Below, piece after piece: positions 4,740 through 8,501 of a stretch of DNA of 60,521 nt. The position numbers and the translations under genes were made by a program. The notes below the pieces were generated by a model. It did no database searches and was not told the origin of the DNA. It saw nothing but the letters and a program-made list of their open reading frames with translations. Source of the DNA: SAR92 clade bacterium (GTDB lineage: Bacteria > Pseudomonadota > Gammaproteobacteria > Pseudomonadales > Porticoccaceae); NCBI GenBank assembly GCA_014381985.1, contig JACNKP010000056.1, positions 1 to 60,521 of the forward strand, in the 5' to 3' direction. Position 1 is the stretch's first letter. Each line of letters begins with the position of its first letter.

Positions 4740-5750
4740 TTACGCCAAAGCTTCTTTGGTGGTTTTGATGATGGCTGCGGCAACCTTATAGGGGTCCGCG
4801 TTGGATGATGTTCGGCGATCTTCTAGACGGCCTTTCCAGCCATCTTCAACAGTGCCAATCGGAATCCGAATAGAGGCTCCACGATCTGAAACGCCGTAGC
4901 TGAACTCATTAATAGACTGAGTTTCATGCTTGCCTGTTAGGCGCTGGTCGTTGTCCGCACCATAAACGCTAATGTGGCGCTCAATGTTTTTACCAAATTC
5001 TTCGCATATTTTGGTAAAAACAGTTTCATCTCCAAGGTCGCGCATAGCGCCATTAGAAAAATTGGCATGCATGCCTGAACCATTCCAGTCCGTATCACCT
5101 AGAGGCTTAGGGTGATAATTGATCGCATAGCCGTACTTTTCACCGGTTCTCTCTAACAAATACCGAGAAACCCAAATTTCATCTCCGGCTTGTTTAGCAC
5201 CCTTTGCAAAACATTGAAATTCCCACTGGCCTGCTGCGACTTCAGCGTTAATGCCTTCAACATTAAGGCCGGCTTCCAAGCAAATATCAAAATGCTCTTC
5301 AACACAATCACGCCCGAAGGTATTAGCAGCGCCAACAGAACAGTAATAAGGTCCCTGAGGAGCAGGAAATCCACCATGAGGAAAGCCAGGTGGTAATTGC
5401 GTGTCAACATCCCACAAGAAATACTCTTGCTCAAAGCCGAACCAAAAGTCATTGTCGTCATCGTTAATAGTCGCTCGGCCGTTGGTTGCGTGGGGAGTCC
5501 CATCGGCATTCATGACTTCAGTCATGACCAAAAAGGCATTGCTTCTGTCTGGGTCAGGATAAATCGCAACAGGCTTTAGCAAGCAATCTGAGGCATTGCC
5601 TTCAGCTTGGTTTGTAGAACTTCCATCAAAGCACCACATAGGGCACTCTTCTAAAGTTCCACCAAAATCGTGTCGAACCTGAGTTTTACTGCGCAAACAT
5701 TGAGTTGGCGCCGTACCATCTAACCAAATATATTCTAACTTTGCTTTCAT
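4740..5750 (-). CDS. glnII: Type II (eukaryotic-type) glutamine synthetase
   Basis: 336 residues, the length of GSII; the usual bacterial GSI is about 470. It makes glutamine from glutamate, ammonia and ATP. Recognisable GSII motifs are MWCFDGSSTNQAEG near the N-terminus, FWFGFEQEYFL (metal/glutamate site), GINAEVAAGQWEFQ, the NGSGMHANFS segment and GVSDRGASIRIP near the C-terminus. The GSI adenylylation tyrosine loop is absent, so GlnE-type control should not apply. It lies upstream of ntrBC on the same strand, with its own sigma-54 promoter and two NtrC palindromes. In related bacteria this position by thiI-typA and ntrBC is held by a GSI, so GSII here looks like a replacement or an additional enzyme; whether GSI exists elsewhere cannot be seen. 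Confidence 0.95.
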   Translation of the reverse strand: MKAKLEYIWLDGTAPTQCLRSKTQVRHDFGGTLEECPMWCFDGSSTNQAEGNASDCLLKPVAIYPDPDRSNAFLVMTEVMNADGTPHATNGRATINDDDNDFWFGFEQEYFLWDVDTQLPPGFPHGGFPAPQGPYYCSVGAANTFGRDCVEEHFDICLEAGLNVEGINAEVAAGQWEFQCFAKGAKQAGDEIWVSRYLLERTGEKYGYAINYHPKPLGDTDWNGSGMHANFSNGAMRDLGDETVFTKICEEFGKNIERHISVYGADNDQRLTGKHETQSINEFSYGVSDRGASIRIPIGTVEDGWKGRLEDRRTSSNADPYKVAAAIIKTTKEALA

Positions 5751-5951
5751 TTTTGATGACTCTCCGTTTAAATTAATTCACTTCTATTGCAACACCGATA
5801 CGGATCATAGACCATTTTTACGTCAAGTAAAAATGACTCTTTTACATTGCATTTAAGTATTCCTAAACCAGTAGCTGCCCGTATTATATATGCAGTCCAA
5901 ACCTCTAACCTTAACCTAACCTGCACTTTAGCTATTCCACTGCTTACATAG

Positions 5952-5967
5952 TGCAATTGTCATGCCA
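5952..5967 (-). promoter_or_regulatory. Sigma-54 promoter of the GSII gene
   Basis: On the minus strand this reads TGGCATGACAATTGCA, a near-perfect match to TGGCACG-N4-TTGCW with GG-N10-GC spacing. The predicted start is near 5940, giving a leader of about 190 bases before the gene at 5750. Confidence 0.8.
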
Positions 5968-6075
5968 ATGGGCTCTTTTAACTTGCCTTACACAAAAGCC
6001 GCCGCAAACGATAGAGACTCTAAGGGAAAGTCTTCCCCCTATCGCCACAACAAAGCCAATCAAGCGATTTGTAGC

Positions 6076-6120
6076 GCACCATAAAGGTGCTATACCTACA
6101 AAGACGCACCGTTATGGTGC
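6076..6120 (-). promoter_or_regulatory. Tandem NtrC binding sites upstream of the GSII gene
   Basis: Two perfect palindromes of the form GCACC-N5-GGTGC occur at 6076-6090 and 6106-6120, centres 30 bases apart (about three helical turns). This is the arrangement of the classic glnA enhancer. They are about 140-175 bases upstream of the start predicted from the sigma-54 promoter at 5952-5967. They might also affect the divergent rhodanese gene at 6249, but no sigma-54 promoter was seen in that direction. Confidence 0.82.
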
Positions 6121-6248
6121 TAATTAGATGCAAGAAGGATCATTTTAGGTGCTAACGCTCTTTAAAGTCCGCACCCAAGATTGTCGCGCGCACTATATTG
6201 CTTTTTCTTGCTAAAATACTGGGCTATTAAGCTGTTGGTGCGCTAAAA

Positions 6249-6554
6249 ATGACATTGCTTACCAAACAATACGCAAAACCAAACATCGCGACCGTCGATA
6301 TGCCGGCGCCGGGCGATATTGTTATCGATGTTCGCCATCCGCAAGAAGCTGCTGATTCGCCGCTAGAATTGAATTTTAATGAGGTTATTCTAATCCCTTT
6401 CTTTAACTTAGACGCGCAACTTTCAGAGCTCGACAACATGCCGACCTACCTTATCTACTGCGACAAAGGCATCATGAGTCGACTCCAGGCCAATATTATG
6501 CGTGATCGCGGTTTTAAGAATGTCGGAATTATGAATCGGCCAAAGCCTGACTAA
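6249..6554 (+). CDS. Free-standing ThiI C-terminal rhodanese domain
   Basis: 101 residues that match only the C-terminal rhodanese domain of ThiI, the tRNA 4-thiouridine synthetase/thiazole sulfur carrier. GDIVIDVRHPQEAADSPLEL corresponds to the domain start. The active-site loop YCDKGIMSRLQA keeps the persulfide-forming Cys (Cys71, equivalent to Cys456 of E. coli ThiI), and GFKNVGIMNRP ends it. The THUMP and ATP-binding PP-loop domains are missing. It sits between glutamine synthetase and typA, exactly where full-length thiI sits in pseudomonads. The ORF opens at ATG 6249 after a stop at 6228. The intact catalytic Cys suggests a working sulfurtransferase piece rather than decay, but its partner is unknown. 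Confidence 0.82.
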   Translation: MTLLTKQYAKPNIATVDMPAPGDIVIDVRHPQEAADSPLELNFNEVILIPFFNLDAQLSELDNMPTYLIYCDKGIMSRLQANIMRDRGFKNVGIMNRPKPD

Positions 6555-6653
6555 GCCTTGATTTAAGCGCATATTTAGGGTCAATCAGCGTCAGCATTTA
6601 AGTGCAATAAAGGAATCACTGAAAAGATCAATGGTAGTTTCTGAGAATTCCAC

Positions 6654-6659
6654 TATAAT
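6654..6659 (+). promoter_or_regulatory. Candidate -10 element for typA
   Basis: A perfect TATAAT lies about 30 bases before the typA ATG at 6690. The -35 position at 17-base spacing is poor, so this is only a probable promoter. Confidence 0.4.
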
Positions 6660-6689
6660 CGCGACCTTTTGACCCAACTGGTAGCCCCC

Positions 6690-8501
6690 ATGTCAATAAG
6701 TAATTTGCGCAACATCGCCATTATCGCCCACGTCGATCACGGCAAAACAACCTTGGTTGATAAACTTCTAAGCCAGTCAGGCACCCTAGATCGAAAGGAT
6801 GTGGGTTCAGAACGATTGATGGACTCCAACGACCAAGAAAAAGAGCGCGGCATCACGATTTTGGCGAAAAATACTGCTATTAACTGGAACGAATACCGAA
6901 TCAACATTGTAGACACTCCTGGACACGCCGATTTTGGCGGAGAGGTTGAGCGCGTATTGTCGATGGTCGATTCTGTTTTATTGCTTGTTGACGCCGTTGA
7001 TGGGCCTATGCCGCAAACCAGATTTGTGACATCAAAAGCTTTTGAGCAGGGTTTGCGCCCGATTGTTGTTATTAATAAGATCGATCGTCCCGGCGCGCGA
7101 CCAGACTGGGTATTGGACCAGGTTTTTGATCTCTTCGATAACCTAGGCGCAACTGATGAACAGCTTGATTTCCCGGTGATTTACACGTCAGCGGTAAATG
7201 GTATTGCTGGTAATGATTATAAAGATATGGCGGAAGATATGACGCCACTCTATAAAATGATTATCGCCGACGTTCCAGCACCTCAGGTTGATGTCGAGGG
7301 GCCCTTTCAAATGCAGGTTTCGGCTCTAGCCTATGACAGCTATGTTGGCGTTATTGGTGTTGGCAAAATTACTCGAGGAAAACTCAAACCTGGCCAACAA
7401 GTCATCGTAAAAAGTGCTGGCGGTGAGCAGCGAAAAGGTAAGGTTCTCAACGTCAAAGGCTACCTTGGTCTTGAGCAGATTGAAACTCAACTAGCCGGCG
7501 CAGGCGATATCGTTTGCATCAACGGAATTGATGGCCTCGCCATCTCCGACACTCTATGCGACCCAGACCATATTGAAGCGTTGCCGCCCCTGAGTGTTGA
7601 CGAGCCCACCGTAAGTATGACGTTTATCGTCAATGACTCTCCTTTTGCTGGTTTAGAAGGGAAATATGTAACCACACGGAATATCAAAGATCGCCTTAAC
7701 CAAGAGCTAATTCACAACGTAGCACTTAGGGTTAAGCCTGGGGATACGCCCGATAAATTTATTGTCTCTGGTCGTGGCGAATTGCACCTTTCTGTTTTGA
7801 TCGAAACAATGCGGCGCGAAGGGTTTGAGATGGGTGTGTCTCGACCCGAAGTGGTTAAAAAATTGGTCGATGGCAAAGTGTATGAGCCGTTTGAACAAGT
7901 CGTCATTGATGTCGAAGAAAAGCACCAAGGTTCAGTGATGGAAGAGCTAGGCATGCGGAAAGCAGAACTGACTAACATGTCTCCTGACGGTAAGGGTCGC
8001 GTCCGCCTAGAGTTTTCTATGCCCTCACGTGGGCTAATTGGCTTTCGAGGCGCATTTCTGACACTGACCTCAGGATCAGGAATCATGACCAGCATTTTTG
8101 ACTGCTACGCCCCAGCCAAAGAAGGTGAAAAATTCACACGCAAAAATGGCGCACTAGTGAGCATGGTTAAAGGCAAAACTGCAGCCTTTGCTCTTTTCAA
8201 TATTCAAGCTCGAGGCAGGCTCTTCTTAGGCCACGCCATTGATGTTTATGAAGGCCAGGTGGTCGGCATTCATTCACGATCAAATGATCTAGTCGTTAAC
8301 CCCATCAAAGGGAAACAGCTGACCAACGTGCGTGCGTCAGGTACTGATGAGGCCTTAACGCTCGTCCCTCCAATCAAACACACATTGGAGCAAGCTCTTG
8401 AATTTATTGAAGACGACGAGCTCGTCGAAGTCACCCCTAAAAGTATTCGCTTGCGTAAAAAGCTTCTAACGGAGACCGCTCGAAAAAGGAACTCAAGATA
8501 A
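6690..8501 (+). CDS. typA: Ribosome-associated GTPase TypA/BipA
   Basis: 603 residues from the ATG at 6690. The open frame extends to a TTG at 6669, but family members begin M-x-(0-3)[17 protein letters not shown], which fits 6690. The order is a translational GTPase G domain (P-loop AHVDHGKT at 13-20, the ERGITI switch, [19 protein letters not shown]), the EF-Tu-like beta barrel, two EF-G-like domains, and the BipA-specific C-terminal domain ([23 protein letters not shown]). It binds the ribosome at the EF-G site and aids assembly of the large subunit, particularly in cold or stress. The neighbour relation to glutamine synthetase and thiI is conserved in pseudomonads. A single-gene unit is likely. 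Confidence 0.96.

Follow-up and report, generated by a model that had tools for sequence, protein, structure and literature searches.

What work is left for ThiI once only its rhodanese domain remains? The question is raised by a short ORF in the window, the 60,521-nucleotide stretch of DNA analyzed here, which is one contig of a SAR92 clade genome. SAR92 bacteria live in the sea, and the host is probably a marine gammaproteobacterium. The ORF (6249-6554, + strand) opens with ATG and encodes 101 aa. It matched the NCBIfam model TIGR04271 (ThiI_C_thiazole) at 98 bits (E 2.6e-28; curated cut-off 70 bits) over positions 14-99, and the Pfam Rhodanese model at 24.6 bits (E 3.5e-5; cut-off 22.2). 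The model of the ThiI THUMP and PP-loop core, TIGR00342, gave no match to it. A previous reading, made from the sequence only, had identified the product as the ThiI C-terminal rhodanese domain with the persulfide cysteine in YCDKG, and the searches bore this out: the cysteine is residue 71 (codon 6459-6461, + strand, within YCDKGIMSRLQA). It lies in an active-site loop of the form C-x-x-G-x-M (YCDKGIMS), so that the loop of the family's full-length ThiI proteins, C-x-x-G-[IVML]-M-S, is retained in the stand-alone domain.

A chance ORF was rejected on the TIGR04271 score, on conservation, and on the start codon and reading frame, which are intact in the close relatives L078-L081. The AlphaFold2 model, for which five sequences were aligned, is moderately reliable (mean pLDDT 72.6). 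When it was compared with the PDB by Foldseek, the 50 matches listed of 422 were mostly rhodanese or rhodanese-like domains with probabilities near 1, and none of these 50 reached an E value of 0.001 or better. The window carries a second rhodanese-domain ORF (413-847, 144 aa) with a hydrophobic N-terminus. The NCBIfam models for GlpE and PspE were both listed for that protein, and neither was listed for the ORF at 6249-6554 at E values up to 1.

Where the gene lies tells us how it arose. Upstream, on the opposite strand, is a type II-like glutamine synthetase (GlnII; 4740-5750, - strand; NF041605 at 397 bits, below the cut-off of 500). Downstream, on the same strand, is an ORF that we take to be typA (6690-8501, + strand), a similar gene being present at the corresponding position in relatives; we placed its start at the ATG at 6690, the listed ORF opening at a TTG at 6669. 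The ORF thus sits between glutamine synthetase and typA, as had been proposed. In pseudomonads a full-length thiI occurs in the same gene order, and in the order relatives L022, L023 and L025 typA is present and adjoined by full-length ThiI frames of 487-526 aa. A glnA-type gene lies upstream, facing away, in all 14 further loci read from the window's genus (g1), and the neighbours at two loci of a second genus, g143, match those of the window. These conserved neighbours therefore indicate that thiI was trimmed in place.

The surroundings of the gene show several further features. A putative -10 element, TAAAAT (6212-6217, + strand), extended to TGCTAAAAT at 6209-6217, lies 31 bases before the ATG; TGCTAAAAT is identical across all five aligned sequences, and the element may function as a promoter. 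Two GCACC-N5-GGTGC palindromes (6076-6090 and 6106-6120; 2 found, 0.04 expected) and one site facing glnA, TGGCATGACAATTGC (5953-5967, - strand; 1 found, 0.16 expected), are presumably NtrC and sigma-54 motifs, respectively, and because of them the intergenic region looks like a nitrogen-regulated glnA control region. The GlnII-like enzyme occupies this place in the window's group and in g143, and other g1 members (L009, L013, L015, L017, L020, L248, L249) have there a different glutamine synthetase, 25-29% similar, an apparent replacement in place within the genus. At L006, L009, L012-L018 and L020 the position that typA holds in the window, downstream of the rhodanese gene, is taken by a membrane-protein-like ORF that runs off the retrieved sequence and is at least 354-462 aa long.

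We then asked whether the remainder of ThiI is encoded elsewhere. The sequence-only reading had named a full-length thiI at another site as the finding that would speak against it, and a search of the own genome (2.5 Mb assembly, completeness 98.16%) with the ThiI core profiles found none. PF02568 and TIGR00342 each matched one frame, of 371 aa, far below the TIGR00342 cut-off, and this frame is MnmA (463 bits). The sole THUMP match fell in a 725-aa frame that we take to be an RlmL-type methyltransferase. With MnmA as the only core match and THUMP confined to the 725-aa frame, we rejected a hidden full-length thiI. The genus behaves alike: the ThiI core scored above its cut-off in 0/23 g1 genomes, compared with 8/13 outgroups from the order. 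Remnants beside the ORF fared no better as a candidate. When 12 full-length ThiI proteins of the family were compared with window positions 5600-6700, strong matches occurred only in the C-terminal domain (E 1e-18 to 3e-23); for the THUMP and PP-loop parts, the best of many short matches had an E value of 0.15, and the best at the loci of seven relatives was 0.032, which is chance level. The two domains are thus gone without recognizable remnants, as had been claimed. Since no ThiI core was found elsewhere, the gene content suggests that tRNA s4U8 has probably been lost.

In contrast to its missing partners, the domain itself has been kept. Our sample comprised 112 genomes of the family, 50 of them from g1. 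The stand-alone domain, whole or partial, was present in 43/50 g1 genomes and in 3/3 of g143, so that single-domain homologues, which had been suggested as something to look for at the locus in relatives, do exist there, with conserved neighbours. Full-length ThiI frames (about 486-535 aa) occur in the sister genus g15 (15/17 genomes), in g16 (3/3), in g150 (7/7) and in others. Neither form was found in the 2/2 genomes of g17 or the 14/14 of g18, although other frames in two of the latter matched weakly. Seven g1 genomes did not yield the domain: G004, G007, G009, G013 and G441, all of 1.2-1.4 Mb, G422, which is 74% complete, and G423; the weak match in G004 is another protein. A TrmA tree of 15 loci, whose deep forks are open and whose g143 row is long, so that nothing was drawn from it on g143, groups four of the small g1 genomes together (100/99), with G018 as their neighbour (90/88). 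Because of this grouping, loss of the domain in these four looks secondary. Two genomes of 1.6-1.7 Mb, G431 and G430 (L251 and L252), carry strongly diverged copies (74.5 and 61.5 bits) that keep the cysteine, and these may represent an intermediate on the way to its loss in the genomes of 1.2-1.4 Mb.

The sequence-only reading had argued from the intact active-site cysteine that the domain is under selection. The cysteine is invariant in 46/46 copies, a count that includes G016, whose copy is frameshifted and was read in its second piece, and the contig-end piece of G421. Within g1, pairwise dN/dS over the whole protein had a median of 0.179 (33 pairs, range 0.067-0.482), and over the core, 0.128 (30 pairs, range 0.039-0.472). 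These are simple Nei-Gojobori estimates from pairs that are not independent, some of them near saturation, and the medians used 40/46 copies (without G016, G421, G434 and the three g143 copies). A separate comparison of 44/46 copies left out G016, which is in two pieces, and G421, which is cut by a contig end, and has a wrong row for G434. The same core within full-length ThiI gave 0.072 (33 pairs). By these estimates the stand-alone domain is under purifying selection, weaker than in ThiI, and it is a lasting trait of the genus. The selection claim is thereby upheld, with a core ratio of about 0.13, far below 1, and homologues that had lost the cysteine or the constraint, which would have told against it, did not appear. 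The lower constraint (0.128 vs 0.072) counts somewhat against a conserved carrier function.

One established role for such a domain is to donate sulfur to ThiS/ThiG for thiazole synthesis, and this had been one of the two proposals for the present ORF. In its favor, the excerpted text of PMC5372745 cites work in Salmonella in which the rhodanese domain was both necessary and sufficient for thiazole synthesis. Full-length ThiG was found in two of the 50 g1 genomes, G001 and G439 (matches over 330 bits). Their loci apparently read thiO-thiS-thiG-thiDE, all names besides ThiG being our assumption from the ORFs, and they too speak for this role. The own genome, however, gave no ThiG match. Ten g1 genomes have partial ThiG matches of 18-29 bits, at about positions 120-225 of 247 and within longer frames; we left them uncounted, though some lie just above the Pfam cut-off of 23. 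A TPP riboswitch was found once each in 21/23 g1 genomes. Its surroundings were read in the own genome only, and there the single riboswitch precedes a TonB-dependent receptor (L173:1653-3095), an arrangement that fits thiamine uptake and argues against the donor role. So does the ThiF of G001 (g1) and of G319 (g15), which is encoded near thiG and ends in a fused rhodanese domain of its own (L227:5514-6626 and L223:3488-4624); G001 is the sole g1 genome with a thi locus read as far as thiF. In g15, ThiG occurs in 3/17 genomes (G100, G319, G450) and full-length ThiI in 15/17, and retention of the rhodanese domain is therefore not tied to ThiG in the family. With no full-length ThiG found in 48/50 g1 genomes, the own genome included, and the riboswitch placed before a TonB receptor, we rejected the thiazole role, which we regard as nearly refuted.

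The domain seems, consequently, to have persisted after both established functions of ThiI were gone. As it is retained where neither known outlet was found, we infer a third outlet. Our preferred explanation is that trimming of ThiI in place has produced a persulfide carrier of one domain, its acceptor being left open, and we assign this explanation a probability of roughly 0.6-0.75. Stand-alone copies throughout g1 and g143 next to sister genera with full-length ThiI, the invariant cysteine and low dN/dS, and the failure to find either the ThiI core or, in nearly all g1 genomes, ThiG argue for it. In this carrier model, IscS would load sulfur onto Cys71, and the domain would hand it to an acceptor other than tRNA U8 or ThiS/ThiG: not tRNA U8, because no ThiI-type THUMP/PP-loop enzyme was found, and not ThiS/ThiG, because no ThiG was found. 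The loading step would have a precedent in E. coli, where the ThiI rhodanese domain takes sulfur from IscS (excerpts of PMC5372745 and PMC5372717). As acceptor we favor an unlinked thiolation enzyme, which was the other of the two earlier proposals. The favored candidate is a shortened Tus relay, IscS to ThiI-C (the stand-alone domain) to TusE to MnmA, which would yield s2U34 with ThiI-C standing in for TusA and TusBCD. This assignment is tentative, and we consider it rather unlikely in absolute terms.

The gene content that suggests the Tus relay is as follows. TusA was found in 13/13 outgroups from the order but in 0/23 g1 genomes; across the family it occurs in 19/112 genomes, with 0/50 in g1. 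TusE, in contrast, is present in 45/50 g1 genomes. In G203 and G462, tusD, tusC and tusB precede tusE (Pfam in G203: DsrE, DsrE, DsrH, DsrC). Used as queries, these genes had no match at 12/12 g1 tusE loci (ThiI-C being present in seven of the genomes and not found in the other five, which are small), nor at one tusE locus each of g15, g17, g18 and g143, the comparison covering tusE loci only. TusE itself carries an extra cysteine, in the motif RPLC, in 44/45 genomes of g1 (L208:3754-4056 is one of the g1 loci), and the single g143 protein parsed has it as well. At this position the family's other parsed TusE proteins show I, V, T, A or S (32/32, thus 0/32 with the cysteine), and some from g18 have extra cysteines elsewhere. 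TusE was parsed at 78/81 loci, G462, G408 and G411 being left out, although G408 reads RPLC; in G001, G022, G336 and G439 the match spans one stop, which we took to lie before the start, leaving an open frame of 100 aa. MnmA of the own genome has both of its cysteine motifs, which we take to be catalytic. In E. coli, IscS hands sulfur directly to ThiI as well as to TusA, according to the excerpted text of PMC5372717. We hypothesize that in g1 and g143 the ThiI rhodanese was co-opted so that one protein replaces both TusA and TusBCD, passing sulfur from IscS to a TusE with a second cysteine and serving s2U34; this fuller version we hold to be unlikely.

Several observations weaken the Tus route. 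TusE is present without either ThiI-C or TusA in the small g1 genomes G004, G007, G009, G013 and G441, in 2/2 g17 genomes and in 12/14 of g18, and thus TusE can do without the domain. The small g1 genomes also have the RPLC cysteine. In g15, TusA is missing, and so is tusBCD at the one locus read, yet full-length ThiI is kept, so that Tus loss is wider than thiI trimming. The match between trimming and the extra cysteine counts for little, because each may represent one event on the same branch. Moreover, s2U forms in vitro with no proteins beyond MnmA and IscS, as stated in excerpts of the review PMC11784392.

A carrier fed by IscS could instead serve TtcA (s2C32) or MoaD (molybdopterin). TusA is the normal MoaD donor in E. 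coli (PMC5372717, in excerpt), and as TusA was not found in the genus, the MoaD step would be left open too, if the pathway exists. However, neither a TtcA nor a molybdopterin gene was recognized beside the domain gene at the 14 listed g1 loci, and we judge these acceptors quite improbable. A different proposal is that the protein is a general rhodanese of the GlpE/PspE kind, which would act on thiosulfate, cyanide or excess persulfide and be tied to no particular biosynthetic acceptor. Single-domain rhodaneses of E. coli do such work, as the excerpted PMC2593051 describes, and the few solved sequence relatives of the ORF include the rhodanese domains of CoA-persulfide reductase and NADH oxidase as well as a rhodanese-like protein. 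Yet the ORF scores as ThiI_C, the GlpE and PspE models are not listed for it, and the ThiI loop has been retained; a general rhodanese is thus an unlikely explanation. The idea that the domain is a vestige about to be lost would fit its absence from the small genomes, the frameshift in G016, which may be a read error, and a constraint weaker than inside ThiI. Against decay stand the cysteine kept in every copy, the intact start codon and frame of close relatives, and a dN/dS that stays well under 1 between highly diverged copies, and we consider a relic very improbable.

How does the proposed carrier compare with known systems? It resembles the C-terminal domain of E. coli and Salmonella ThiI in family score (TIGR04271) and active-site loop, and the full-length gene of order relatives likewise adjoins typA; it differs in that the THUMP and PP-loop parts are missing and no ThiG was found in the genome. 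With GlpE and PspE it shares one rhodanese domain with a catalytic cysteine, but it matches neither model, and by place and sequence it descends from ThiI. With TusA it would share a role, that of passing on sulfur from IscS, as suggested by gene content. The TusA fold differs from the rhodanese domain, and we know of no sequence kinship between the two.

The trimming itself has been published for insect symbionts. In the Arsenophonus of Ornithoica turdi, thiI is cut to its rhodanese domain (288 bp, about 95 codons), and the same shortening is said of Wigglesworthia and Candidatus Pantoea, according to excerpts of PMC10654098. That Arsenophonus, by the same excerpts, keeps other thiamine genes and encodes no thiamine transporter, whereas here ThiG was not found and a riboswitch-linked TonB receptor is present; the relatives in our case are metagenome genomes of the SAR92 type rather than insect symbionts. 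No report of a trimmed thiI in marine bacteria appeared among the papers listed by our literature searches, from which subscription papers were mostly absent.

A lineage that has kept the domain and its cysteine, and in which neither partner was found, points to a third acceptor for the ThiI rhodanese, and natural genomes such as these are a place to find it. The retention of TusE and MnmA without TusA, and without tusBCD at the tusE loci, is relevant to the question of which components the 2-thiouridine relay really requires. For E. coli, the review PMC11784392 states in the excerpts that definitive proof of a direct transfer from TusE to MnmA is still lacking. If the domain was indeed recruited to the Tus relay, a trimmed s4U enzyme would now serve s2U34.
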